Both the position numbers and the translations under genes were made by a program. The notes below the pieces were generated by a model. That model was given only the letters and a program-made list of their open reading frames with translations, did not search any database and had not been told where the DNA came from. A stretch of 64,000 nt of DNA from a virus. Of this stretch, positions 11,001 to 55,403 are shown piece after piece. Each line of letters opens with the position of its first letter. Within the stretch, counting starts at the first letter, position 1. The stretch lies in the IMG/VR virus record IMGVR_UViG_3300044971_003665, positions 62,001 to 126,000 of that record; one strand, written 5' to 3'.

Positions 11001-12068
11001 ATGCAAGACTTCAACACCCTCAACAATCCCAAGTTTTTGTATCGGGCAGAGATGCATCATCCGTTTCCCGATTGGGTCGCGAGCGAACCCATGCCGGAGG
11101 CGGCGGAATTCGAGAAGAAAGCATCGGCAGCCTTCGCCGACACGAAGCGCCGGCTGCTGCCAATCTGCACAAAGTCTGCAGCCTTTCACTCAGCACTCAA
11201 CGTATTCGCGCATCTGGATAATTACGACGACGCCACGCTGGAACGCGTCAAGTCAGCGTGCGCCCACTATGGCATCGAGCAGGACATCCTGCCCTACGCT
11301 GAACTGTTCGCGGGCGAGTTCGAGAAGAGCGCCTCGCTCGACGAATTGACGGAGGGCCGCTACGCCATCAATGACGAATTCGGTGGCGAAGTTTTCAAGC
11401 TGCTGCCGCTGAACGACGCGGTCGACGTTCGCGATTCATCGTTCGAGCTGTCGAAGATGGCAGCGGAGAATCGCATCATGCTTCCGATGTTCGTGGCTGC
11501 GGCCAGAGAGATCGTGAAAGCCGCGCACGACCATAACGTGTCGCACGAACTGCCGGATCTCATCATGCGGCACGGCGTAGAGCGCTTCCCGGACGCAGAG
11601 GAGGCCGCACGAAGAATTCAGGGACGGTCGCAGTTTTGCAAGGACGCGACAATCCGGGAGCAGGTGGAGGCGGACTACCAGGCGGCCCTCGCCGACCTGG
11701 AGGCCGAGCCGGACGCTGCCATGGAAAAAATTGCGACCATCGATTTCGTCGCTGGCGTCTCCAACAGCTACCGTCACTCATCGCTGGTGCCGACGCCGTT
11801 CGACATCGTGTTCTGCGGCGCGCTCGCCTCTGATGCGGAAAAGGCGGCGAAGGAGCACGTCCTGGTTCGTGACGTTTTACTGCCGCTGCAAGAAGTCCGC
11901 TCGATCGATGCGATGGATGCGGAGTATCGGCTCAGCAAATCTGCTGCGGATACATTCAGACGTCTGCGGGACACCGGGGATGCGCGCGACCTCAGTCTCG
12001 CTGTCGAGCAGTGGCCGGAGAGCGACCAAAAAACTCTACTACGTTTGACCGTCGCTGCCGCCGCCTGA
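11001..12068 (+). CDS. Hypothetical protein
   Basis: 355 residues from ATG 11001; the frame is open back to 10827, but that part overlaps the start of the divergent primase-like gene and lacks coding character. Mostly alpha-helical and acidic, with a segment around residues 105-150 (FEKSASLDELTEGRYAI, then NDEFGGEVFKLLPLND) that resembles phage proteins of unknown role. No signal peptide or membrane segment. Upstream lies an AT-richer intergenic stretch with a weak promoter-like TTCCAC-17-TATGCT. Confidence 0.6.
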   Translation: MQDFNTLNNPKFLYRAEMHHPFPDWVASEPMPEAAEFEKKASAAFADTKRRLLPICTKSAAFHSALNVFAHLDNYDDATLERVKSACAHYGIEQDILPYAELFAGEFEKSASLDELTEGRYAINDEFGGEVFKLLPLNDAVDVRDSSFELSKMAAENRIMLPMFVAAAREIVKAAHDHNVSHELPDLIMRHGVERFPDAEEAARRIQGRSQFCKDATIREQVEADYQAALADLEAEPDAAMEKIATIDFVAGVSNSYRHSSLVPTPFDIVFCGALASDAEKAAKEHVLVRDVLLPLQEVRSIDAMDAEYRLSKSAADTFRRLRDTGDARDLSLAVEQWPESDQKTLLRLTVAAAA

Positions 12069-12087
12069 AACCAACACCTGACGCACT

Positions 12088-12717
12088 ATGAGCAGCTTGA
12101 TGACGGCATCTGTCAAACTGGACGAGGGCGAGATAAGGAAGGCCCTCGGAGATGCTGACACGTCTGGTATCGTCCTGTTTGTCATTGCGCTCCACGCCTT
12201 CGGCCCCGCGGTCATGGGGGATGCTGAGGCAGGCGTGGAGCAGATGGATCCATCTGAGATGTGGTCAGACCTGTTTACCCGGTATGGAACCTGGGTGACC
12301 GAGGAGGGGGAGAACAAACTCAACGCGATCATCACTGGGCTGACGAACGGACAATTCTGGTATGACGCGGATGTGTTCGTGGCGGTCGCTACCGCTTTGT
12401 TCGACGGTGACCTCGGCGACACGCTGATCTTCGATGACCTGGACGCTACGGAGATCATGTGGGCGGTGCTCGAAATGGGGATGGCGAGCGACTCCGTCGA
12501 TCCGCCGACATTCTCGAATGCGGTGCGGCGATACATCCAGGATGCGCTCGAATACGAGCAAGAGGATCAGGATCAGAATGCGACAGAGGTCGAGCGGGCA
12601 TACCTGATGGTGCTCGACCAGATGCGTGCGCTGGGAGTCCCGACCGACATGCTGCGCGCGATGGATGAGGAGTATGCAGCGGTCGCGGCCGAGTTCAAAG
12701 ACGACTCGGATGCTTGA
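12088..12717 (+). CDS. Acidic hypothetical protein
   Basis: 209 residues, strongly acidic, starting 19 bases after the previous stop. Helical throughout; no motif recognised. The stop codon lies inside the -35 element of the promoter for the structured RNA that follows (12717-12746), so this gene probably ends its transcription unit or reads into the RNA. Confidence 0.6.
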   Translation: MSSLMTASVKLDEGEIRKALGDADTSGIVLFVIALHAFGPAVMGDAEAGVEQMDPSEMWSDLFTRYGTWVTEEGENKLNAIITGLTNGQFWYDADVFVAVATALFDGDLGDTLIFDDLDATEIMWAVLEMGMASDSVDPPTFSNAVRRYIQDALEYEQEDQDQNATEVERAYLMVLDQMRALGVPTDMLRAMDEEYAAVAAEFKDDSDA

Positions 12718-12746
12718 CGCAATTTGGCGTCATCTTGCGTCATAAT
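12717..12746 (+). promoter_or_regulatory. Promoter for structured RNA (ACGCAA-18-CATAAT)
   Basis: -35-like ACGCAA at 12717-12722, 18-bp spacer ending GCGT, -10-like CATAAT at 12741-12746, so a start near 12753. The same layout (GCAA, 18 bp, GTGTCATAAT/G) recurs at 13086, 13556 and 47397. No open reading frame with good start follows within 300 bp, which supports a non-coding transcript. Confidence 0.6.
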
Positions 12747-12752
12747 ACTTTG

Positions 12753-13035
12753 CTGAGTGGTGTTCGCCGTCTAAACACATCACGCCTCGTCAGCCCGCGC
12801 ATCTGTTGTGAAGTTCATCCTGCGTCATGCGTGGGATCATCTACAGCAACAGATGCGCCGCTGGCTGACGGATACGGTGTCCGTTCTTTTTCGTTTCGCA
12901 CCCCGCTCGAAAAGCTGCAGGCGAGTCCTGCGCCTCTTCGAGCGGTTGGTGTTCATCAATCGCAGCGTCGTGCTGCGATACCGTATCGCCTCGATACACC
13001 GGGCGGGGCTGAGGTCCCGCCCGGTTCACTTTACG
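12753..13035 (+). ncRNA. Multi-hairpin structured RNA, about 280 nt
   Basis: This 405-bp gap between genes (12718-13122) is filled with back-to-back perfect stems: 12797-12808 with 12847-12858 (12 bp), extended by 12788-12795 with 12863-12870 (8 bp); 12868-12872 with 12880-12884 followed by a T run; 12903-12911 with 12937-12945 enclosing 12917-12921/12927-12931; 12959-12966 with 12972-12979 (8 bp, 5-nt loop); 12983-12988 with 12992-12997 (6 bp, 3-nt loop); and 12998-13007 with 13016-13025 (10 bp) followed by TCACTTTACG as a possible terminator. The promoter sits just upstream. A chance reading frame crosses the region but has no ribosome binding site. The stem at 12868-12884 plus T run competes with the outer part of the first stem, so an attenuator is possible. 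No known RNA family recognised. Confidence 0.6.
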
Positions 13036-13039
13036 AAAC

Positions 13040-13084
13040 AGCCGGCGCGGCCCACGAGGCCGCGCCGGCTCGTCTTCTTTACCT
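13040..13084 (+). terminator. Terminator with TTTACCT tail (1 of 6)
   Basis: Perfect 13-bp GC stem 13040-13052/13058-13070 with loop CACGA, then CGTCTTC and TTTACCT at 13078-13084. Follows the structured RNA and isolates the promoter of the next gene. Confidence 0.75.
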
Positions 13085-13085
13085 G

Positions 13086-13115
13086 CCGCAATTCGAGACC
13101 GCGCGGTGTCATAAG
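13086..13115 (+). promoter_or_regulatory. Promoter giving a leaderless transcript (CCGCAA-18-CATAAG)
   Basis: -35-like CCGCAA at 13086-13091, 18-bp spacer ending GTGT, -10-like CATAAG at 13110-13115. The ATG of the next gene is at 13123, eight bases after the -10, so the expected transcription start coincides with the start codon and no ribosome binding site exists. Confidence 0.65.
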
Positions 13116-13122
13116 ACTTTGT

Positions 13123-13491
13123 ATGGACACCACCAATACCATGATGCCGCCAAAAGCGGCTGAACTGTGTGAGCTGGTCAAACAGCTCGGAACCATGGCC
13201 AGTGATGACGCAGCCCGCAAGGGCTGGTCAGTTATCGCTGCGCTGGAGAAACACCGGAAGGAACTCCTCTCGGAGTTCACTTCCAAAAACCTCGCCGACG
13301 TTCTCTGGCTCGAAGCGTCGACCAAGCCCGACGACGATGACGGCGGGTGGCTGCCGGCGGTCCTTAGCGGACCAACGGACCTCGACTACGAGATCCCGTT
13401 CGTGGCTGGCGTCGCTGCCAGACTGCGGGAACTCGTCGAGCGCCTGCGCACCACCGGCAGCCTCCTTGCTGGCGCCGACCCCGCCCTGTAA
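13123..13491 (+). CDS. Hypothetical protein, probably leaderless
   Basis: 122 residues from ATG 13123. The frame is open to 12808 but the upstream part is the structured RNA and terminator; the promoter position fixes the start at 13123. Two helical regions (residues 12-50 and 90-115) flank an Asp-rich turn (KPDDDDGGW). Followed seven bases later by a terminator, so it is a monocistronic unit. No family recognised. Confidence 0.65.
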   Translation: MDTTNTMMPPKAAELCELVKQLGTMASDDAARKGWSVIAALEKHRKELLSEFTSKNLADVLWLEASTKPDDDDGGWLPAVLSGPTDLDYEIPFVAGVAARLRELVERLRTTGSLLAGADPAL

Positions 13492-13497
13492 CGCAAC

Positions 13498-13544
13498 GTG
13501 CCGCCGCGGCTCCTTCGGGGGCCGCGGCGGCACTTCCTTTACCT
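13498..13544 (+). terminator. Terminator with TTTACCT tail (2 of 6)
   Basis: 16-bp stem (one G.T pair) 13498-13513/13518-13533 capped by a TTCG tetraloop, then TTCC and TTTACCT at 13538-13544. Directly behind the 122-residue gene. Confidence 0.8.
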
Positions 13545-13555
13545 GGTTGGACCCC

Positions 13556-13585
13556 GTGCAATTCCAGACCCTTCCGTGTCATAAT
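13556..13585 (+). promoter_or_regulatory. Promoter for small RNA (GTGCAA-18-CATAAT)
   Basis: -35-like GTGCAA at 13556-13561, 18-bp spacer ending CCGTGT, -10 CATAAT at 13580-13585. Same family as 12717, 13086 and 47397. Confidence 0.65.
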
Positions 13586-13592
13586 ACTTTGT

Positions 13593-13700
13593 ATATACAT
13601 GGTTACCAGATTCGTCTGGTGGCTGTGTGTGTGCACGCCGACAGGCAATGACGACAAGACCCGGGCGCTGCTTCGAACGGCGCCCGGGTTCCCCACTTCC
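13593..13700 (+). ncRNA. Small structured transcript, about 100 nt
   Basis: From the expected start near 13593: a 6-bp stem with TTCG tetraloop (13605-13610/13615-13620), an unstructured stretch, then a 10-bp terminator stem 13659-13668/13680-13689 followed by TTCCCCACTTCC. An ATG at 13599 opens a 37-codon frame running through the terminator stem; there is no ribosome binding site, so a leader peptide is possible but a non-coding RNA is more likely. The remaining gap to 13787 holds only a short palindrome (GCTGAGTCAGC, near 13714) and the ribosome binding site of the next gene. Confidence 0.5.
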
Positions 13701-13787
13701 GGGGCGTCATGCTGAGTCAGCCTTCTGGACTTCCCCCGAGTCTGGACGCCAACGCCTGTTGAAGGACGGGCTAAGGGGGTTGTCGTT

Positions 13788-14270
13788 ATGAAAACCACTA
13801 TCACAAGTGACGGGCTGACTGTTGTGCGCGAAGGCCTCAATATCGTTAGCATCACACCCCCGCTGCCATACGGGGTGTGGTCCGGGGAGAGTCGTGCGCT
13901 AGTCGGCGACCGCTACGCGACGGAGGAAGAGGCGCAGATTGAAGTGGGCCGCCGCGAGGCGCTGGGCGAGTGGGTGTGTCTCTACACGCCGCCGCTCCCG
14001 AGCTTCTGCGAGTGCCGCTGCGGCTGCAGCTGCAGGAGCCACGCCTCCGGCACCTACTGCGGCCCGTGCGGCCGTGGGTGCTGCGGGGAAACCGCAAAGT
14101 CTGCGCGCGCTAACGATTGCATGCCCAGCGCAGCTGACATGATGGAGGCGTCGGCATACACACACGGCATGTGTCGTCCGATGGCGATCAAGAAAGTGCT
14201 GCCGACTGACGCCGCCCCACTGATGTCGGCGATGATCGCCGCCGAGGCGGCAGAACGAAAAAACATCTAA
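13788..14270 (+). CDS. Cys-rich hypothetical protein
   Basis: 160 residues, ATG 13788 preceded by a good ribosome binding site (AAGGGGG). The middle has an extreme Cys cluster: CECRCGCSCRS followed by YCGPCGRGCCG, ten Cys within about 28 residues, spaced as in metal-cluster or disulfide-rich domains. No signal peptide is seen, so metal binding in the cytoplasm is the simpler guess. Followed by a terminator. No family recognised. Confidence 0.6.
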   Translation: MKTTITSDGLTVVREGLNIVSITPPLPYGVWSGESRALVGDRYATEEEAQIEVGRREALGEWVCLYTPPLPSFCECRCGCSCRSHASGTYCGPCGRGCCGETAKSARANDCMPSAADMMEASAYTHGMCRPMAIKKVLPTDAAPLMSAMIAAEAAERKNI

Positions 14271-14283
14271 GTCGTCTGCGCAT

Positions 14284-14325
14284 GGCGCGGCCCCAGGTGG
14301 GGCCGCGCCGGCGTCTTCTTTACCT
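14284..14325 (+). terminator. Terminator with TTTACCT tail (3 of 6)
   Basis: Perfect 11-bp stem 14284-14294/14299-14309 with loop AGGT, tail GGCGTCTTC then TTTACCT at 14319-14325. Separates the Cys-rich gene from the convergent terminase fragment. Confidence 0.75.
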
Positions 14326-14335
14326 ACTACAGAAA

Positions 14336-16216
14336 TTACCCGCCCACGTAGCCGCCCTCGAACATGTCGCCCATCCGCGACGCCAGATCGGTCGGGATGG
14401 ACAGACCGAACAACGTCCGCAGCTCGTCCATGATCTGCTTGTTCGGGATGAGCGATTCGTTGCGCACGATGCGCTTCATCATGCACGCGTAGTTGGTAGA
14501 CTGCAGGAAGTCATCCGACCGCGCCCCAGCCTTGATGTAGCGCATGATGGTGCGACCGGACGGCGCTTCGGCTATGTTTCTCCGGATGTTCAGGCAGTCC
14601 AACACGAATGGGCTGGACTCGTCCCAGCGTGGCCATGAGATGTTCTGGTCCTTGATGTCGGCAAGCAGAGCCGAGAGGGAGTCCGACCGGTGCAGCGACA
14701 TGATGTGCGCCTCCGGGTGCTTGATGCGGTCCAGCATCAGCTTGGTGTCGGTATACTGAAAGTGAATGATCGATTCCGTCCGGATGCGTCCGCAGTCCCG
14801 CATGTAGGCGTTGTAGTAAGCGCCGCCGCCGTTGTCGGTGCCCATCGCGAAGCTCTTATACTTGTTGTGCTGCTCGACGATGTTCTGTGCGATCTCGCGG
14901 TAGTTCATGCCGGAGTAGCGGAAGGCGTAGACTAGGTCCATCTTCCCGTCGCCGCGCATCCCGTAAATCGTATGCACCGTGTAGGAGAGTTTGCTGCGAT
15001 ACGCCGGCTCCCAGTCCGAGCCGCCCCAGTCCACGCCGGAGAACAGATACATGTAGCGCGAACGTCCGGCGAGGCAGTCCTCCTGCGTCTGCGCGAACGT
15101 CTTGGTGGTGCAGCACCGCTTCAAATCTTCCTCGTTGAGTTCGGTCAGCCCGGACTCGACTGCGATACCCCAGACCTCCTGCAGGAACTTCTTGAGAGGA
15201 TACTTTTTGTAGTCCTTCCAGATGTCCATGAAGCCCTTTCCGAGGGCATACTCCGGCACGATCACCTGCGGCAGATGGAAGCTGGGCATGTTGACGCGCA
15301 GCCGAGACCGGTCTTCGTGGACGAACTCCCCCATCAGGGGGTTGAGCTTGATGTGCTTGTTGTCCGGGCAGCGCAGGCCTTCCACGGAGGCCATCATTTT
15401 CGGCACGAGCTCTGCGTCGCCAAGCGAGTGGAACTTCTTCGGACACGGACAATACACGTGCCACACGCCGCGACTGCCCAGGTTGTATTGAGCCTCCAGG
15501 CAGGTATCGAGATGCTTCGACGTGCCGGCGAACACGGTCAGACGATCGTCGGGAAAGGCTTTTTGAACCTGCTCGATTTCCGGCAGATGCTCGGCGTCGA
15601 AATCCTGGCTCTCATCGATGATGATGGTGGGCACGCTTTCGCCGCGGATCTTTGTCGGGTCCGTCAGGATGTGCATCAGCTTCAGCGAGCCTCCCTGTGG
15701 CGACTCCTTGTAATACATGTTGTTGCGGTAGCCGCGGGAGGTGAAATACGCCGGGGGACAGATCGAGCCGCGCTGCATGTTGAGCAGCTTGTCCGCCATC
15801 GTCTTGCTCTGCTCCCTCAGCGGGGTCAGGTAGATGGAGCGGTAATTTGGAACCACGCTGAGCTTGAACAGCTCAGCGGCCCCGAGGCCCGTGGAATTGT
15901 GGCTGGCAATCCCGGAGGTGAAGTATGCGTGATCCTCGCCCTCCACACGGAGGTCGAACATCTCGCGTTCCTCACCCACCGGCGCACATGCAGTGACGGG
16001 CTGCCAGCCGTCTTGAGTCAGTATGAAGTCACCGGGCAGGCATTGATCCACCTGCCCATATCCACTGAGTCTCCTTACCAAATGCTTGCCGGCGCACTCC
16101 AACGCGAAATCTCGCGTCAGGATTCGCCACACCGGCATCGGCACGGTTCGGCAGACGTGGGTGACACGCACAAAAGCACCACCCGGAGCAGCGACTTTTA
16201 AGTCGAGATGCTCCAC
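14336..16216 (-). CDS. terL: Terminase large subunit, C-terminal part with C-intein
   Basis: 626 residues from GTG 16216, chosen because GAGGAAAG lies five bases upstream; the frame is open to a TTG at 16282. Residues 1-107 are a C-intein: a block B-like stretch (DFALECAGKHLVRR, then LPGDFILTQDGW), block F (EMFDLRVEGEDHAYF) and the terminal ASHN. The next residue is Ser, followed by TGLGAAELF, the continuation of the P-loop whose first half (GRQVGK) is encoded at 17362-17796. The extein then has Walker B (TIIIDESQDFD), the coupling motif VFAGTS and nuclease acidic residues in FSGVDWGGSD and MGTDNGGG. Trans-splicing would rebuild a terminase of about 630 residues that cuts and packages DNA. 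Confidence 0.85.
   Translation of the reverse strand: MEHLDLKVAAPGGAFVRVTHVCRTVPMPVWRILTRDFALECAGKHLVRRLSGYGQVDQCLPGDFILTQDGWQPVTACAPVGEEREMFDLRVEGEDHAYFTSGIASHNSTGLGAAELFKLSVVPNYRSIYLTPLREQSKTMADKLLNMQRGSICPPAYFTSRGYRNNMYYKESPQGGSLKLMHILTDPTKIRGESVPTIIIDESQDFDAEHLPEIEQVQKAFPDDRLTVFAGTSKHLDTCLEAQYNLGSRGVWHVYCPCPKKFHSLGDAELVPKMMASVEGLRCPDNKHIKLNPLMGEFVHEDRSRLRVNMPSFHLPQVIVPEYALGKGFMDIWKDYKKYPLKKFLQEVWGIAVESGLTELNEEDLKRCCTTKTFAQTQEDCLAGRSRYMYLFSGVDWGGSDWEPAYRSKLSYTVHTIYGMRGDGKMDLVYAFRYSGMNYREIAQNIVEQHNKYKSFAMGTDNGGGAYYNAYMRDCGRIRTESIIHFQYTDTKLMLDRIKHPEAHIMSLHRSDSLSALLADIKDQNISWPRWDESSPFVLDCLNIRRNIAEAPSGRTIMRYIKAGARSDDFLQSTNYACMMKRIVRNESLIPNKQIMDELRTLFGLSIPTDLASRMGDMFEGGYVGG
15896..16216 (-). 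other. C-intein of atypically split TerL intein
   Basis: About 107 residues (codons 16216 down to 15896), ending in Asn before Ser+1. Unlike ordinary split inteins, block B (with CAGKH in place of TPxxH) lies on this half rather than on the N-half. No homing endonuclease domain is present. The size resembles the described AceL-TerL type (about 25-residue N-part, about 104-residue C-part). Confidence 0.8.
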
Positions 16217-16301
16217 GGATCTTTCCTCAGCTATTTCGGTTTCCAACAGCACGCGATGTTTGGCATCGTAGGCGCATCGCAAATAGCGTCAAGATGAAGA
16301 T

Positions 16302-16324
16302 CCCCGCAAGCGCAAGCGGCGGGG
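16302..16324 (-). terminator. Possible leftward terminator between small gene and TerL-C
   Basis: Short stem CCCCGC/GCGGGG (16302-16307/16319-16324) followed on the minus strand by ATCTTCATCTTG. It would end the small leftward gene and make the terminase C-fragment a separate transcript. Downstream, minus-strand TTGACG-16-TACGAT is a possible promoter for it. Weak stem, moderate confidence. Confidence 0.4.
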
Positions 16325-16326
16325 GC

Positions 16327-16479
16327 TCACCTGAACAGGCGCAGGAACACGGTCGGCACGGAACGACCGCGCGCATTATTCCCCATTACGGACGAAGGGG
16401 CAGCGAAGACATCCACGGACTTGCCGTCCGCCGTCTCCACGCTGTATGGTCGTCCACAACTCAACCATTTGAACACCAC
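16327..16479 (-). CDS. Small hypothetical protein between the TerL halves
   Basis: 50 residues from GTG 16479 (or GTG 16476). The composition looks coding (GRPYSVETADGKSVDVFAAP, then NNARGRSVPTVFLRLFR): alternating strands with a conserved-looking GRSVP end. It is antisense to the very beginning of the rightward frame that starts before 16480, so that gene probably begins later. No family recognised; it carries no intein or nuclease motif. Confidence 0.45.
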   Translation of the reverse strand: MVFKWLSCGRPYSVETADGKSVDVFAAPSSVMGNNARGRSVPTVFLRLFR

Positions 16480-17383
16480 TCAGAAACTACCAAAAAAGCA
16501 GCAATGGACTCCGCGTCCATCCCCGTTCCTCGCAGGACTCGTCAGCGTCCAGGCCGCCAGCAACGACCCGGGCAGGCCGGACATCACCATCTACCGAATC
16601 GACGTCGAAGACGCCGAAATATGGATGCGCAAGGCAGCGAGGAAAGACGAGAGCGATGCGTTCTTCCTGCGTCGCGACGAGCGGATCGTCGAGATGTATG
16701 ACGCAGCCGGAAAGCTGAGCAAGAAGTTGCCGAAGCCGGAATACCCATATACGGGCCCGGACGCAACGGCGCTGCAGATTGACCGTAGCATCCTGCTGCA
16801 GCAGATGCGGACCGCGCTGCGTCAACCGCAGCTGTCGCTGCTGGCGTGCGCGGAGGATCACGCCGGAGCCAGCGCCGCGGATCATTCCAACTTCGGCATG
16901 CTCTGCCGCCGCATGATCATGGAATCGGGCAAGGCGGACCTTGATCAGTTCTACGTCGGCGAGCACAAGATGTGGACCTGCGGAGTGTCCTGCCTCTACG
17001 CCGACGTGAGCGCCCTGTCCCCGAGCATGCAGGACATCTACCTCGAGCGCCACAAGTGGCTGAAGAAAAGCTGGCCGCTGAGCGCCAGACACCACTTCGA
17101 GACGCTGGCGGATCGTTTCGCGCGCATCCGGGAAAACTACATCACCGATCTGCTGCGGGATTGCGGATTCGCAGCCGGGATGTCCGGCGAGATGATCCTC
17201 ACGCTGCAGTCGAAGTGGATGCTCGCTTCGCCCGGCGTCCGCTACCGGTTCTCGCAGCACCTGATCGACAAGCTGAAGGACGGGCTGATCTACACGCCTG
17301 CGGAGGCGGAAGTGTTCGACCCGTCATACGTCGAGATCCACGGAGCAGAAGCCATTCGCAGCTATCGCACGATGCTGGCCTGA
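16469..17383 (+). CDS. Hypothetical protein inserted between the TerL halves
   Basis: 304 residues if started at TTG 16469; no strong start or ribosome binding site is visible (TTG 16421 or ATG 16625 are alternatives). Reads opposite to both terminase fragments and its 3' end overlaps the end of the N-fragment by 22 bp. Alpha/beta start (DITIYRIDVEDAEIW), then helical with QLSLLACAEDHAG and a C-terminal helical half. In described fractured genes the gene between intein halves is often a free-standing homing endonuclease; I do not see GIY-YIG, HNH, LAGLIDADG or Vsr-like motifs here, so its role is open. Confidence 0.55.
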   Translation: MNTTQKLPKKQQWTPRPSPFLAGLVSVQAASNDPGRPDITIYRIDVEDAEIWMRKAARKDESDAFFLRRDERIVEMYDAAGKLSKKLPKPEYPYTGPDATALQIDRSILLQQMRTALRQPQLSLLACAEDHAGASAADHSNFGMLCRRMIMESGKADLDQFYVGEHKMWTCGVSCLYADVSALSPSMQDIYLERHKWLKKSWPLSARHHFETLADRFARIRENYITDLLRDCGFAAGMSGEMILTLQSKWMLASPGVRYRFSQHLIDKLKDGLIYTPAEAEVFDPSYVEIHGAEAIRSYRTMLA

Positions 17384-17796
17384 ACTGGGATCCCCTCCGC
17401 GAAGATGTCGTGCAACGTGGCGACGCCGCGGTCGGTGACGACCGTGGTGTCGCCGTCGGCGCATTTCCCGACCTGACGTCCAGCCTTTAGGGTGACGACG
17501 CTGCCCGGCGCCAGCGCGGTCATGGCATACATGAACGGGCGCGCGCTCAGGTCGAGCGGCTTCTCGAATGGGTAACGCGGGAAGAATCGAGGAATGAGAA
17601 GGCCGAAGTTGAAACCGCACAGCGGGACGATCTCAGCCTCGATCTTGGCGATGTCGCTGCGTGTGGCCTTGCCATCCGCCACGGCCGCCGTTACCGTGTC
17701 CATGCGCTGCAGAGCGGCGGACACCTTTGCCGCCCGCTGAGGGTCTCTCCTCAAGGCGTTCATCAAATCATAAATAAATTCACCTTGCGCTAACAT
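17362..17796 (-). CDS. terL: Terminase large subunit, N-terminal part with N-intein
   Basis: 144 residues from ATG 17796. Residues 1-111 are the N-terminal region of a large terminase ending exactly in the P-loop start VVTLKAGRQVGK. Residue 112 is Cys and begins a 33-residue N-intein (CADGDTTVVTDRG, block A), after which the frame stops. Joined to the C-fragment the P-loop becomes GRQVGKST, a standard terminase Walker A, so neither fragment can hydrolyse ATP before trans-splicing. The start codon shares two bases with the divergent ATG at 17795 (CATG). No ribosome binding site is evident; an in-frame ATG at 17763 is an alternative start. Confidence 0.85.
   Translation of the reverse strand: MLAQGEFIYDLMNALRRDPQRAAKVSAALQRMDTVTAAVADGKATRSDIAKIEAEIVPLCGFNFGLLIPRFFPRYPFEKPLDLSARPFMYAMTALAPGSVVTLKAGRQVGKCADGDTTVVTDRGVATLHDIFAEGIPVQASIVR
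17365..17463 (-). other. N-intein of atypically split TerL intein
   Basis: 33 residues starting with catalytic Cys (codon 17463-17461) directly after the P-loop Lys. Only block A is present (CADGDTTVVTDRG followed by ATLHDIFAEG). Such a short N-half is characteristic of atypically split inteins of the AceL-TerL kind. Confidence 0.8.
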
Positions 17797-17989
17797 GGCT
17801 CAATCAAAATCGACGGTGTTGTTGGAAAACGAACGTGCGGACAGGTTCGGAAAAGCACGCACGTCACTCTATTTGATCTGGACGCGTGAGCAAGGCGAGA
17901 AACTACGCGATATTCAAAATGAGCAATCACCACCCACCGAACCAGTCGAAAGCGAAGCAGAAGAAATCCGGGCGAAATTCAACGCCTGA
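17795..17989 (+). CDS. Small hypothetical protein
   Basis: 64 residues from ATG 17795, start codon overlapping that of the divergent terminase N-fragment. Basic N-terminus, acidic C-terminus (TEPVESEAEEIRAKF). No ribosome binding site; AT-rich CATAAATAAATT lies about 25 bp upstream and could serve promoters in either direction. Overlaps the next gene by 71 bp. Function unknown. Confidence 0.5.
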   Translation: MAQSKSTVLLENERADRFGKARTSLYLIWTREQGEKLRDIQNEQSPPTEPVESEAEEIRAKFNA

Positions 17990-18527
17990 CGCGCCGTCCG
18001 TCGATGTCTTGGCCGCACTGCAGAGCGCGGTCAAGGCCATCCAGGAGGCCAACGAACTCAACGCCAGGCTGCTGGACCGCGAACGTCCGCTGATCGATTT
18101 CCACTCGGGCGTCGTCGGGGTCAACGACAGCGACATCCGCATCTACTGGGACATCCGCATTGTGCGCGGGGCCGACCAGCCGTTCACGCAGGTCACTGGC
18201 ACATCATCCATGCCCGGTATGCTGAGCGACAAGATGCGACCGCATGCTCAAGCGCAGATTCAGCAGGAGGTGGCGGACAAGATGGCCGGCCCTCTCATCG
18301 CTGCGTTCATGGAAGAAGCGGAACATCAGAACGTCGGCTCTCTGAAGCGAATTGCCAGCCGGCGCCTGATCACGGCGGTCGAGACCACCGCACCCGCCGT
18401 GCCGAAATTACCACAAGGAGAGGACGCGAACGGCAGCGTTCTGGACGCGGCGCAGCAGCACGAAAAGGAGACGGCCGGAAACGTGAGGACTCCAGAAGCG
18501 GACGACGATGACTCACCACAACCGTGA
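17919..18527 (+). CDS. Hypothetical protein
   Basis: 202 residues from ATG 17919 (a GTG at 17886 is in frame). Basic low-complexity N-terminus, a short helical segment (LAALQSAVKAIQEANELNAR), a conserved-looking central domain with strands (DIRIYWDIRIVRG), and an acidic disordered tail ending in DDDDSPQP. Overlaps the RNase H-like gene by 20 bp. No family recognised. Confidence 0.55.
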   Translation: MSNHHPPNQSKAKQKKSGRNSTPDAPSVDVLAALQSAVKAIQEANELNARLLDRERPLIDFHSGVVGVNDSDIRIYWDIRIVRGADQPFTQVTGTSSMPGMLSDKMRPHAQAQIQQEVADKMAGPLIAAFMEEAEHQNVGSLKRIASRRLITAVETTAPAVPKLPQGEDANGSVLDAAQQHEKETAGNVRTPEADDDDSPQP

Positions 18528-19275
18528 CACCTGGAACAAACACAAGTGGCGAAAAGAGACGTCCTGGTGGGATAACCTGACCGTCGACGGTGAGCTGATC
18601 AAGGAGCGCTACGCCGACGTGTTCGAGTGGCTCGAAGATGTCGCCCCGGATCCTTACGAGCACGACTGCGTCCTCTACACCGACGGCTCCGGCTGCACCG
18701 AGGGATGGGGCGGCTACGCGGCCGTCTGGGAGCGTATCGATCTGATCGGCGAGGTCAGGGCGCCGGTGTCGCGCGGTTGCTACGTCGCTGGCACCTATGG
18801 GTCCACGGTCAGCCGATCGGAGTTCAGCGCCCTGCTGGATGGCGTGCACTCCATCCTGACAGAGCGCGGGCGGGAGCTTCAGGAGCAGACGACTGACTCC
18901 GCGGAGCTTTACAAAATCGGCACCGAGGGAATCCTGAACCAATTCACGGGACCTGACCGGGTCTCGATTCTCTGGTACACCGATCGCAGCAGTCTCGCCC
19001 ACGCGTTCCTCTACAACGAGGATGGCGACCCGCTGATGTCCCGGCTGAAGGAGCGTGATCTGTGGATGCGTTGGTCGTTCATGGCCAAGCACGTTTGCAT
19101 CACGCCCATGTGCCGCCCGCGTAATGTCGTGGACGGGCAGGCGATTTGTGATGCACTCGCAGGCGCGGCGCGCGCTCTCCTCAAGGGGGCTCGCGAAGAA
19201 TTGGCTGAAGCGGCTTCCAAAATTTACCCTACTGAAAAATGGCAAAAAATGCGACCCCAAACAGCGATCTTCTGA
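18508..19275 (+). CDS. RNase H-fold nuclease-like protein
   Basis: 255 residues. The four acidic positions of RNase HI can be placed in order: VLYTDGSGCTEGWGGYA (first Asp, with the following glycine-rich strands), SRSEFSALLDG (Glu), LWYTDRSSLAHAF (second Asp) and NVVDGQAICDAL (last Asp). RNase H cleaves the RNA strand of RNA-DNA hybrids, useful for removing primers during phage replication. It is longer than bacterial RNase HI (about 155) with an N-terminal extension of about 50 residues and a loop after the first strands. It lies just before the SbcD/SbcC-like nuclease genes and overlaps the next gene by 37 bp. The missing His after the third Asp means activity is not assured. Confidence 0.7.
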   Translation: MTHHNRDTWNKHKWRKETSWWDNLTVDGELIKERYADVFEWLEDVAPDPYEHDCVLYTDGSGCTEGWGGYAAVWERIDLIGEVRAPVSRGCYVAGTYGSTVSRSEFSALLDGVHSILTERGRELQEQTTDSAELYKIGTEGILNQFTGPDRVSILWYTDRSSLAHAFLYNEDGDPLMSRLKERDLWMRWSFMAKHVCITPMCRPRNVVDGQAICDALAGAARALLKGAREELAEAASKIYPTEKWQKMRPQTAIF

Positions 19276-20447
19276 TCGCACTTATCGGTGACACCCACCT
19301 GCGAGACTCACAATACGCGGCTGCCCGTCGGGGCCAGGACTTCTACGACGGCTTCCGTAATGCAGTCGAGGCGGCGCTGAAGCACGCGGACATCATCTGC
19401 ATCACCGGCGACATCTTCGACCGCCCGCGGCCGAGCCCGCAGGTAATCGGGCAGCTGATGCACATCGACCAGATGATCCGGAGCGCCGGGAAGGTGGCAT
19501 TCACCATCACCGGCAACCACGACTGGAGCACGCCCACGTGGCTGCAGACGCTGTTTCCGGGGCGCGCGTTAAATCTGACGGACGACGACACCGAGACGCT
19601 ATTTGAAGGTGAGACAGGCATCGTGCCGTTGGACGACTCCAGCGTCGTCTTCCGTGGCTACCGCATCGTGGGGCTCACGCCGCACACCGCAGCCAGCTTC
19701 CGCGGCGACTTGGCGAACATCACCGTGCGGGCGCGGCAGGCAGATGTCGTGCTGTTCCACGGACTCATCGACGGAGTGGTGAAGTTTCCGATTCACACAC
19801 CGGACCCGCTGCACGTATCCGAGCTGCCAATCTCGAAGCACAACAAGGCCTGGCTGCTCGGCGACATCCACCTGCAGGGGTTCCAGCAGCTGGACCGTCC
19901 CGGCGGAGGCAAGTGCCTGATCGGTTACCCGGGGTCGACCGAGATGTGCAACGCCGGCGAGCCGATCGGCAAGTCTGTGCCGATCATCCGGCTGACCGCC
20001 GAGGGCGCTGTCCTGAAGGAGACGATTCCGATTCACACCCGTCCGTTCATCAACGCGGAGGTGCGCACCGCCGAGGACCTCGACGCGCTCATGCTGCGTA
20101 TCGAGCCGGTGGCCGCGCAGCATCCTGTGGCGGTCGTGCAGTTCGACCGGCAGTTTCCGCAGACGATCAACCGGCTGCACTCGATGCTGGACGCCCAGCG
20201 CGCGGTCATACGGTGCTACCCGCTGCCCAACACGCAGGCGCATCCGGCGAGAGTCAAAGATTCACCGGACTCCGAGAAGGAGTTCACGATGGAATACTTC
20301 GTGAGTCAGCGATTCAAGGACCGGGAAGACCTGCAGAAGACGGCGCTGGATCTCCTGCACCGGGGCGAGAGCGACGCCAGCAATATCGTGGCAGATCTGA
20401 TCGAGGCTCGCCTAGTCGCAGCAGACGTCAGGGAAAATGAAGAATAG
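19239..20447 (+). CDS. SbcD/Mre11-like (gp47) nuclease subunit
   Basis: 402 residues. Calcineurin-type phosphoesterase motifs in order: GDTHLRD (residues 17-23), GDIFDRP (about 57), TGNHDW (about 90), a later FHG and GDIHLQG (about 206). These ligate two metal ions in Mre11/SbcD/T4 gp47, the nuclease half of the end-processing complex. The C-terminal part after residue 300 is the capping/partner-binding region. Its partner, SbcC-like, is encoded two genes later, with an HNH gene between them. Initiates in the end of the RNase H-like gene (37-bp overlap). Confidence 0.88.
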   Translation: MAKNATPNSDLLIALIGDTHLRDSQYAAARRGQDFYDGFRNAVEAALKHADIICITGDIFDRPRPSPQVIGQLMHIDQMIRSAGKVAFTITGNHDWSTPTWLQTLFPGRALNLTDDDTETLFEGETGIVPLDDSSVVFRGYRIVGLTPHTAASFRGDLANITVRARQADVVLFHGLIDGVVKFPIHTPDPLHVSELPISKHNKAWLLGDIHLQGFQQLDRPGGGKCLIGYPGSTEMCNAGEPIGKSVPIIRLTAEGAVLKETIPIHTRPFINAEVRTAEDLDALMLRIEPVAAQHPVAVVQFDRQFPQTINRLHSMLDAQRAVIRCYPLPNTQAHPARVKDSPDSEKEFTMEYFVSQRFKDREDLQKTALDLLHRGESDASNIVADLIEARLVAADVRENEE

Positions 20448-52321: not shown

Positions 52322-52767
52322 AGCGTCACGCACCGTCGCCGGTGAAGGCATCGGACTCGGTCGTCAGCCGCATGCTGGCGAAGCTGCTGGGAGTGCCGGC
52401 GTCTGACGCTCTCGACGATGTCAAGACCGCGGCAGTGGACAGCCTGCCGGCCGACTCACCCCTGCGGCTGTTGATCGTCGCCACCCACGGGTTGTATCCG
52501 TGGGTGGCGGCTGTCGCGACGGACATCATGAACGAGGAGTCGACGCCGCTTGCGGAACATCTGCTGTCGACGCCGGGGTCGATGTATGTGGTGAAGGACA
52601 CGACCGCATCCGGCCCGGAGTCGTTATGGCTGGCTGTCGCCGATCCGTGGGCGGACATGCTGGCGGCGCTGCAACGCATGAGATGTCGAGGTTTATTCCA
52701 CACATTCAAAGTCGGCGATGACCTCTCCATGATCATCGCCGTGCAACTATCATCATGTCGACTCTGA
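52318..52767 (+). CDS. Hypothetical protein between recombinase and RecQ-like helicase
   Basis: 149 residues from GTG 52318, coupled on both sides (4-bp and 13-bp overlaps). Helical (SVVSRMLAKLLGVPAS), hydrophobic centre (LRLLIVATHGLYPWVAAVA). No family recognised. Confidence 0.55.
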   Translation: MKRHAPSPVKASDSVVSRMLAKLLGVPASDALDDVKTAAVDSLPADSPLRLLIVATHGLYPWVAAVATDIMNEESTPLAEHLLSTPGSMYVVKDTTASGPESLWLAVADPWADMLAALQRMRCRGLFHTFKVGDDLSMIIAVQLSSCRL

Positions 52768-55403
52768 CCAAACCGAAACCCGAAGAATCCGAAACTGAAA
52801 GTCCTCCGATCGAAGCGCGGAAAGCCGTAACAACCACCGCCGAAATACAGGCGCTGATGCAGGGAATGAAGAAGATGCCGGCGGTCCTGAACAGCCTGCG
52901 GTTCAGCACGCTCCGGGAGGGGCAGGACCGATCGGTGAAGTCCATCATGGCGCAGCGGGACACGATCACGATCCTGCCAACCGGGTCTGGGAAAAGTGCA
53001 TGCTTCGTTGTGCCGACGCTGTGCATGGGCTGGCGCACCATCGTCATCTACCCGCTGATCGCGCTCATGCGTGACCAGGCCACGTCCATGCAGCGCAAGG
53101 GGCTTGCTGCGGCGTCCATCTCCAGCCAGGAGACGGACGGACACAACGCCTCGGTGCTGCGGGACTGGGCGTCGGGCACGCTGCAGTTCATGCTGGTCAG
53201 CCCGGAGCGCTTCTCGAATCCGGAGTGGTCGAACGTGGTGTCGCAGTTCCCGCCTGATTTTGTGGCGATGGACGAGTGCTTTGCGCCTGACGTTGAGATT
53301 CTCACGGGTCGTGGATTCGTGAGATTCGATGCACTGGACGATGCAGATCAGGTGGCTCAGGTGGATCCGGACACGCACGAGATGACGCTGGTCGTTCCGT
53401 CGCGCGTCATACGTAGGCGGCACAAAGGAGAGATGATCCACATCGAATCGACCAGCGGCATAGACATCTCGGTAACTCCGAATCACGATCTGCTGGTTTA
53501 CAGGGCTGACGGCAGCTGGCGAAAGCGAACTGCCGCGGACGCCAAGTTCAGCTACATGTGGCGTATGAGAGCCGCAGCCGGCGCCGGCACTGGACGCTCC
53601 GCATTGACACCTTGGGAGCGTCTTCAGACTGCTTTTCAGGCGGACGGAAACGCCCACAGCAAATCGTCTGCTGCGTTTTCGTTCGTGAAGCAGCGAAAGA
53701 TCAAGCGATTCCTGCAGATCATGAAAGACGGCGGTTATGCCTTCAACGAGGTAAAAGACCGATCAGATGGTAGCCGTCGAAGGTTCATCGTGACGGGGGT
53801 GCCCGGGCTTTCCAAGATCATGCGCGAGGTGCTTGATTACAACGATCTGTCGGCTGATGCCTGTCGCGCGCTGGTCGACGAATGCATCGCCTGGGATGGT
53901 AGCGACGTCAGCGATTCGCTGGGTTACTACAGCAGCACGGTGGAGGACAACACAGACTACTTCCAGGAAGTCTGCATACGCGCTGGACTGCGCGCCCGAA
54001 AAACATTGCAGGTGGATCACAGGTCGGACGCATTCAGCGATGTACACCGGTTGTTCATTCGCCTGGGCGAGCCAACCGTAGACACGCAGGAATTCAGGAA
54101 GCGCGTGACGGACTACGACGGAATGGTCTACTGCGTGACTGTACCCACCGGGTGCATCGTGGTTCGACGCAGCGGAAAAGTTGTCGTGATAGGAAACTGT
54201 CACACGTTCCATGACTGGGCGGACACCTTCCGTCCCGGCTACAAGTTCGCCGGGGAGTTCATCCAGAAGGTGCAGCCGAAAGTGGTGGCGGCGTTCTCTG
54301 CGACGCTGTCCGAGGAGGCTGAGGCGGAGGTGCGGAGCGGTCTGGGCATCCTCAAGGCCAAGCTGATCTACCACTACCCGCGCCGCACGAATCTGCATCT
54401 GGCGTCCCTGTTCCTGGACCGCATGTCGGAGGCCGCACCCTGGGTGGCTGCGAACTGCGAGGGGCCGACCATCGTCTACGCTTCCACGCGTAAGAGGGTG
54501 GAGGAATACGCGGCGGCCATCAGCCGCTACACCAACCGCCCGGTCTACTTCTACCACGGCGGAATGCTGCAGCCGGATCGTCGGTTCAACCAGGACAAGT
54601 TCATGGCGGACCCCGAGGCAGTCATCGTGGCCACGAACGCGTTCGGCATGGGCGTGGACAAAAGCAATATCAGACACGTGGTGCACTTCGACATCCCGGG
54701 CACTCTGGTGGCTTTGGCGCAAGAAGCGGGTCGCGCAGGCAGAGACGGTCTCGACTCCTACTGCACGATCATCCCGACTCCTGAGGGCATTCGCACGCGG
54801 AAGCACTTCATCCGCTGCGGCAATCCAACGCCGGAGGACATCAAGGCGTTCTTCAAGGCGGCAAGTCAGATGCGTGAGGGCGCCAACGGGGCGATCACGG
54901 CGTCGCGCGATGAGATATGCAAGCGGGCTTCGATCGATCCGTTCGCGACCCAGGCCATCATGTCGTTCTGCCTGGGTGAGCGAATCTTCGCGCACGACGC
55001 GGACGCCGCGCGGCAGCATCGCATCCGGTTTGAGGAAGTCATTCCGACCATGACGAAGAAGGAATCGGAAACGCGCGACGCGATCTTCGACGTCGGCGTG
55101 GAGAAGGACGGCTGGTGGCAGTTCGACGTGGATGCGCTGGCGGAGCAGTGCGGCGCCGAGCCGGTCACGGTGATGTCGCGCATGCGAAAGATGCACGACA
55201 AGAACATCCTGGAATGGGTGCGGTCCACCACGCGCAAGCCGCTGCAGATCTTGCGTCGTCCTGACGAAATTCCGAAGGAGTCGTTTGACCGACTGCACGA
55301 GAAGTCTGCGCGCGCGAATGCGGACCTGGAGCTGGTGCTGGACTACACGAACGAGGCGGACGATGCGAAGCACGACTTCCTGGAGAAACACCTGAACCGA
55401 TAA
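52755..55403 (+). CDS. RecQ-like helicase containing an intein
   Basis: 882 residues, of which 175-481 are an intein; the spliced protein has 575. Motif I ILPTGSGKSACFV, motif Ib SPERFSN, motif II split as VAMDE^CHTFHDW (DECH after splicing), motif III VAAFSATL, motif V TNAFGMGVDKSNIRHVVHFD and motif VI AQEAGRAGRDGLD are those of RecQ. The C-terminal 150 residues contain winged-helix-like segments; I do not see the four-Cys zinc site of cellular RecQ. 3'-5' helicase for recombination and fork repair, in a cluster with the UvsX-like gene. Confidence 0.87.
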   Translation: MSTLTKPKPEESETESPPIEARKAVTTTAEIQALMQGMKKMPAVLNSLRFSTLREGQDRSVKSIMAQRDTITILPTGSGKSACFVVPTLCMGWRTIVIYPLIALMRDQATSMQRKGLAAASISSQETDGHNASVLRDWASGTLQFMLVSPERFSNPEWSNVVSQFPPDFVAMDECFAPDVEILTGRGFVRFDALDDADQVAQVDPDTHEMTLVVPSRVIRRRHKGEMIHIESTSGIDISVTPNHDLLVYRADGSWRKRTAADAKFSYMWRMRAAAGAGTGRSALTPWERLQTAFQADGNAHSKSSAAFSFVKQRKIKRFLQIMKDGGYAFNEVKDRSDGSRRRFIVTGVPGLSKIMREVLDYNDLSADACRALVDECIAWDGSDVSDSLGYYSSTVEDNTDYFQEVCIRAGLRARKTLQVDHRSDAFSDVHRLFIRLGEPTVDTQEFRKRVTDYDGMVYCVTVPTGCIVVRRSGKVVVIGNCHTFHDWADTFRPGYKFAGEFIQKVQPKVVAAFSATLSEEAEAEVRSGLGILKAKLIYHYPRRTNLHLASLFLDRMSEAAPWVAANCEGPTIVYASTRKRVEEYAAAISRYTNRPVYFYHGGMLQPDRRFNQDKFMADPEAVIVATNAFGMGVDKSNIRHVVHFDIPGTLVALAQEAGRAGRDGLDSYCTIIPTPEGIRTRKHFIRCGNPTPEDIKAFFKAASQMREGANGAITASRDEICKRASIDPFATQAIMSFCLGERIFAHDADAARQHRIRFEEVIPTMTKKESETRDAIFDVGVEKDGWWQFDVDALAEQCGAEPVTVMSRMRKMHDKNILEWVRSTTRKPLQILRRPDEIPKESFDRLHEKSARANADLELVLDYTNEADDAKHDFLEKHLNR
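53277..54197 (+). mobile_element. LAGLIDADG-like intein in the RecQ DECH box
   Basis: 307 residues from Cys (53277-53279) to Asn (54195-54197), followed by Cys. Block A CFAPDVEILTGRGFVRFD, block B VTPNHDLLVYRA, block F DYDGMVYCVTVPTGCIVV and block G VVVIGN. The penultimate residue is Gly instead of His. Two degenerate LAGLIDADG-type motifs can be placed at ERLQTAFQADGN and LVDECIAWDGSDVS. Codon use is more relaxed than the flanking exteins. Confidence 0.85.

Follow-up and report, generated by a model that had tools for sequence, protein, structure and literature searches.

How does a phage build a working packaging motor when the gene for its terminase large subunit (TerL) lies in two pieces and the break falls inside the ATP-binding loop? 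The question is raised by a locus in the 64,000-nucleotide stretch analysed here (the window), which comprises bases 62001-126000 of the 184,016-base virus record IMGVR_UViG_3300044971_003665. A first-pass annotation, made from the letters alone, had noted that TerL is encoded there by two leftward open reading frames (ORFs) and had proposed that an atypically split intein fractured the gene; the two ORFs are indeed present. We put the probability at about 0.82 that the locus is a fractured gene with a naturally, atypically split intein at the P-loop of TerL. This is the best reading of four lines of evidence: the splicing residues, the P-loop restored by joining the halves, uninterrupted distant homologues, and the modelled fold of the C-terminal intein half (IntC).

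By its motifs and family similarity, the encoded protein can be assigned to the phage terminase large subunits. Residues 314-601 of the C-part match the terminase large subunit family phrog_675 (E 1.6e-11), and a Walker B region (IIIDESQD) is present. Joining the two exteins gives AGRQVGKSTGLG, with a complete Walker A motif (AGRQVGKST), in agreement with the GRQVGKST first predicted; the spliced protein would have 111 + 519 = 630 aa, the length of ~630 residues given at the outset. The joined exteins match the intact TerL of Arash with E 3.2e-29 in a two-sequence database, and this alignment runs through the junction at ...FKAGRQIGK/SVSLG, the slash marking the intein site. Both junctions are where the annotation had placed them: the N-fragment ends within a 33-residue intein segment that starts with Cys after GRQVGK (GRQVGK/C), and the C-intein ends in ASHN before STGLG (GIASHN/STGLG). 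An intact terL elsewhere, named beforehand as the finding that would count against the proposal, was looked for with a C-part profile, which gave one match each in 7/7 records, the window's own 184,016-base record included, so that no second TerL was found in these possibly incomplete records. The Pfam TerL model PF03354 was uninformative for this search, as it had no match anywhere in the record. The N-extein alone, searched against phages, returned 31 records at chance level (best E 2), and the N-part had a single chance match in NCBIfam (E 0.015). The TerL strand is opposed to that of its neighbours: only six of the 55 predicted window genes run leftward, two of them the TerL parts (gene counts in the window rest on heuristic predictions with uncurated starts).

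Is the arrangement particular to one genome? IMG/VR scans with the TerL C-part returned the window's own group (L004-L006, 99-100% identical), L007, L008 together with L009 (99.99% the same and counted as one lineage), and L030, a contig of 5,745 bases that begins within the opposite-strand gene, with the upstream stretch for the N-terminal intein half (IntN) off the contig. Four TerL lineages are thus compared. Over IntC and the C-extein together, L007 is 77%, L008 64% and L030 55% identical to the window, and the intein site is common to all four. The whole layout, with the N-part and its IntN, the opposite-strand gene, and the C-part and its IntC, is kept in L007 and L008; L030 has IntC and the C-extein, and a match to the opposite-strand gene on the minus strand (E 8.6e-14). 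IntN is found in 3/3 lineages with that stretch sequenced and the opposite-strand gene in 4/4; chance is excluded because the arrangement is conserved in four lineages.

Table 1. Features of the split terL locus (positions in the window).
Feature	Position	Strand	Description and basis
TerL N-part	17362-17796	-	111-aa extein + 33-aa IntN + stop
TerL N-extein	17464..17796	-	111 aa, ends LKAGRQVGK; alignment to L007 and L008; final portion aligns to uninterrupted Arash TerL
IntN	17362..17463	-	33 aa + stop, first residues CADGDT; 42-53% identity between lineages, pN/pS 0.37-0.54
Tail-to-tail overlap of IntN and partner gene	17362..17383	.	22 bp, from ORF coordinates; 20 bp in L007, 41 bp in L008
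Opposite-strand partner gene	16469..17383	+	304 aa from TTG (start codon uncertain); ORF, relatives; no family match
Conserved DNA element CGTCCGTAATGGGG	16381..16394	-	identical in L007, partial in L008; not seen in L030
G+C-rich hairpin	16302..16324	-	immediately upstream of promoter-like site; hairpin in four lineages
Promoter-like site TTGACG-16-TACGAT	16265..16292	-	before C-part; conservation; -10 weak
TerL C-part	14336-16252	-	119-aa IntC + 519-aa C-extein
IntC	15896..16252	-	119 aa, GTG start, last residues GIASHN; conservation, intein-like model
TerL C-extein	14336..15895	-	519 aa + stop, first residues STGLG; ATPase remainder + nuclease; phrog_675, Arash TerL

The segments that flank the break carry the marks of an intein. 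Cys1 is present in all three lineages with IntN sequence, and CAxxH, SHN and Ser+1 in 4/4 lineages; the block-B Thr is replaced by Ala, as in VidaL. The lengths of IntN and IntC are 33/119, 32/119 and 37/118 aa in three lineages. Between lineages, the ratio of nonsynonymous to synonymous change (pN/pS) is 0.35-0.51 for IntC (first 12 codons left out), 0.31-0.51 for the N-extein and 0.25-0.39 for the C-extein, with synonymous sites near saturation in most pN/pS comparisons; judged by these ratios and that of IntN, all TerL and intein pieces are under protein-level constraint. IntC, first put at ~107 residues, is most likely 119 aa long and starts at 16252, because the 12 codons upstream of the 107-aa start are conserved as protein (92% identical to the window in L007 and 83% in L008, with pN of 0.04 and 0.12 and pS of 0.22 and 1.07, respectively) and because L030 has an ATG at the exact position of the GTG found in the window, L007 and L008. 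The structural model of IntC, taken alone, is consistent with a Hint fold: inteins fill the top rows in Foldseek, VidaL (PDB 6vgv) being first (E 1.5e-4, TMq 0.70, 1.7 A), and VidaL is again first in VIA (Z 10.2, 3.0 A over 102 residues), with other inteins tied. A short IntN on its own polypeptide, the splicing residues and a clean junction point to a natural atypical N-terminal split, and the locus has the makeup of a fractured gene, in that a split intein interrupts a conserved gene and a free-standing gene separates the halves.

Several results weigh against this reading. The IntC model has a predicted local distance difference test score (pLDDT) of 63.8, falling below 50 at residues 1-27 and 106-119, and the sequence match of the intein to VidaL is weak (E 0.036 and 0.013). 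TIGR01443 gave a match in L008 alone, at 15.2 bits and below its cut-off of 15.6, and PF14890 found no intein at the locus in 3/3 records. None of the outside matches covers IntN, which is identified by its position, its block-A look and its conservation, and no nuclease signature was found in the opposite-strand gene.

The uninterrupted state of the P-loop is seen in more distant relatives. One IMG/VR scan with the C-part gave 42 loci: six from known records, L030 and 35 distant ones. Among the latter, 30/35 have a match that reaches the P-loop region (the remaining five begin further in and are left out of the count), and in 30/30, many of them near-copies, the P-loop reads through uninterrupted, mostly as AGRQIGK/SVSLG. 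In an unrooted TerL tree of 18 rows (five split rows, 12 intact ones made up of Arash and 11 picked from the 30 distant loci, and Vibrio phage D69), the split rows form one side of a 100/100 branch of length 3.6. A single acquisition of the split intein is the simplest reading of this tree, short of proof because the root is not known and the separating branch is long. D69 itself (L023:6338-6709 and L020:1-1506) shows a different interruption. Its terL is annotated from MQVGKS only; shortly upstream, a stretch matching the N-terminus of Arash TerL (E 2e-9) ends in ...KAGR, where an Rfam group I intron begins (92.9 bits, E 1.5e-23), with an annotated homing endonuclease just before the intron. 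The D69 P-loop thus appears to be interrupted by a group I intron, so that this one ATP-binding loop would have received an RNA intron in one phage and a split intein in others.

What, then, is the gene between the halves? The 304-residue rightward gene of the first-pass annotation is in the sequence and behaves as a true gene: its frame is open in three lineages, both other sense frames contain stops, and third codon positions are the most variable. Its identity to the window is 52% in L007 and 31% in L008, with pN/pS of 0.56-0.74 (the window-L004 pair left out), and each of 7 records holds a single copy. Searches of IMG/VR, GTDB genomes and GenBank phages revealed no copy of the gene away from split-terL loci. 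Viral scans with it returned 3, 6 and 6 loci, all already known as split-terL carriers, though such scans can miss members, because one with L030 in its alignment failed to return L030; the GTDB genome scan gave 62 pattern matches, of which 0 were confirmed. Nothing significant was found in Pfam, PHROGs, NCBIfam, PADLOC, PDB sequences or a phage tblastn search, and no endonuclease family was matched in Pfam, PHROGs, NCBIfam or PDB sequences. The structural model (mean pLDDT 54) gave weak rows in Foldseek (PDB, BFVD) and VIA and excludes no fold. An RNase H hybrid-binding domain, suggested by an 'RNase H' PHROG match in L008 (E 0.15, residues 41-63), was set aside, as PF01693 was found in 0/4 records. 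An RNase H-like gene (18508-19275, +, with YTDGSG...GWGGYAAV; Pfam RNase_H E 0.065) does lie near the N-part in the window, and likewise in L007 and L008; no profile relation to the opposite-strand gene was found (E 0.58).

On the other side of this gene, the stretch up to IntC holds conserved DNA elements (Table 1), and no conserved protein was seen there. One stem pair of the hairpin reads C-G in the window, A-T in L007 and T-A in L008. After the hairpin, TTGAC(G/A) lies 36-40 nt upstream of the C-part start codon in four lineages, with weak best -10 matches (3-4 of 6). A scan of 13500-19500 found one promoter-like site against 1.6 expected; since this is no excess, it is conservation that supports the site. 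TTGAC occurs 30-45 nt before the start in 3/55 predicted genes, the C-part included. From these elements we infer a C-part promoter whose transcription start, if it is real, would be close to the start codon. The first-pass annotation held that the halves must be transcribed separately; this is a plausible arrangement, and one long leftward transcript, antisense through the inserted gene, would be an alternative. A Shine-Dalgarno-like motif precedes 10/55 predicted window genes. The 'small leftward gene' that had been placed between the halves corresponds to an existing 50-aa ORF (16327-16479), with no equivalent in L007 or L008; its match to DUF7209 reached E 0.11 and 12.6 bits against a cut-off of 27, and we do not retain it as a gene. 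Rfam gave two sub-threshold matches in window positions 12000-20000 and no intron even at E <= 1, and the window contains no tRNAs.

Fractured genes as reportedly described by Dassa et al. 2009 have an endonuclease gene between the split-intein halves. In MIJ3 PolB, a split-intein gene has an HNH ORF between its halves (PMC6892783). The locus resembles both in that a split intein divides an essential phage gene and another gene stands between the parts; it differs in that no endonuclease family is matched, and may also differ in the position of the gene on the opposite strand in four lineages. The claim that the arrangement appears different therefore stands in part: fractured genes are known to have another gene between their halves, and the opposite strand in four lineages and the missing endonuclease match set this case apart. 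The layout itself is known; what is distinctive is the conserved opposite-strand partner, its end overlapping IntN, and the conserved hairpin and promoter-like site. Among the papers listed in our searches of open-licence PMC literature, none describes a split intein at the TerL P-loop whose halves are separated by an opposite-strand gene, and we do not claim that none is in print.

Among individual inteins, the IntN lengths of 33, 32 and 37 aa fall inside the 15-37 aa published for natural atypical split inteins (PMC13014065). VidaL ranks first for IntC in both the sequence and the fold comparison and shares a short IntN and CAxxH in block B, but its IntN has 16 aa (PMC13014065) against 33 here, identity is ~20%, and other inteins tie with it by VIA Z. 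IntN measures 25 aa in AceL-TerL, 37 in GOS-TerL and 30 in the consensus Cat, with the split following the first helix (PMC13014065, PMC11766414); this group also has the TerL host in common with the locus. Cat appears in the IntC fold lists (Foldseek E 4e-3; VIA Z 8.4), whereas the sequence match to CatC, confined to the C-terminal 25 residues, falls short of significance (E 1.5). GOS-TerL is reported to combine Ser and Cys nucleophiles, in contrast to Cys1 and Ser+1 here. TerL is a repeated target of intervening elements, including the Mic1 and TaPaz inteins and an intron in ICP1 terL (PMC10448857); these elements and that of D69 are contiguous inteins or RNA introns, and none is a split intein.

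We propose that the TerL P-loop carries, between its Lys and Ser, a class-1 intein (Cys1, block-B His, His-Asn, Ser+1), which was broken near its N-terminus, in a phage ancestral to this group, by an inserted gene now on the opposite strand. Each TerL piece would be synthesised as a protein of its own, and the C-part would probably have a dedicated promoter immediately before its start codon. The IntN of 32-37 aa and the IntC of 118-119 aa would then associate, rebuild the Hint fold and splice in trans to yield, in the window's phage, the 630-aa terminase. ATPase activity and packaging should depend on splicing, because neither piece has a whole Walker A. It is very unlikely that the locus is instead dead or decaying, with an intein that no longer splices and packaging left to another terminase or to the C-part alone: the failure of PF14890, IntN being the least conserved TerL piece, and the possible incompleteness of the records would fit, but the splicing residues are the same across lineages, all frames are open, pN/pS of IntN and IntC is close to that of the N-extein, and neither another TerL in 7/7 records nor a Walker A in the C-part is there to take over. 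Less probable still, to the point of being hardly credible, is a joining of the halves at the RNA level by a trans-splicing intron. Introns do occur in phage terL, in ICP1 and at the same P-loop in D69, but here translation and constraint extend over the intein blocks on either side, and the search of 12000-20000 showed no intron.

In our proposal, the opposite-strand gene would be the remnant of, or still be, the mobile element that fractured the intein, as a very diverged or undescribed homing-type nuclease. We lean slightly this way because such genes sit in described fractured genes, the HNH ORF of MIJ3 PolB among them, and the fast evolution of the gene, which mobile-element genes often share, fits as well; the odds are about the same for an accessory or regulatory protein. 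With a working split intein, the gene or its transcription would then affect the timing of TerL completion, a possibility to which we give somewhat under an even chance, and which would suit a gene confined to all four split lineages without a nuclease family match; it would also suit a gene whose antisense position and 3' overlap with IntN persist in three lineages, and a hairpin and promoter-like site that persist in four. A more specific suggestion, tentative and on balance unlikely, is an obligate partnership of the gene with the split intein: it would either belong to an undescribed family of antisense-strand, gene-fracturing homing endonucleases or be a regulator that times completion of the packaging motor through its transcription, which is convergent with that of IntN and divergent from that of the C-part.

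Whichever role the partner has, four lineages have retained a split intein at the ATP-binding loop of an essential motor as they diverged, and the opposite-strand gene along with it. The locus offers a clean natural case in which to ask by what route a gene is fractured and whether split inteins persist because they act as switches, and its short IntN at the P-loop site provides new material for protein ligation. With a group I intron in another phage, the P-loop looks like a target for different intervening elements.

Intein-like segments also occur elsewhere in the same record. A DEAD/DEAH helicase ORF (52755-55403, +; DEAD 3.9e-16, Helicase_C 3.7e-18) appears to carry a contiguous intein at its DE/CH motif (Intein_splicing E 6.3e-7, below the cut-off), the middle of which is LAGLIDADG-like by eye. 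Outside the window, at 177500-184016 of the record, a 1044-aa ORF (L022:751-3885) has an Intein_splicing match with E 6.5e-7 and contains a stretch, NADFDGD, that we take to be typical of RNA polymerase beta'.

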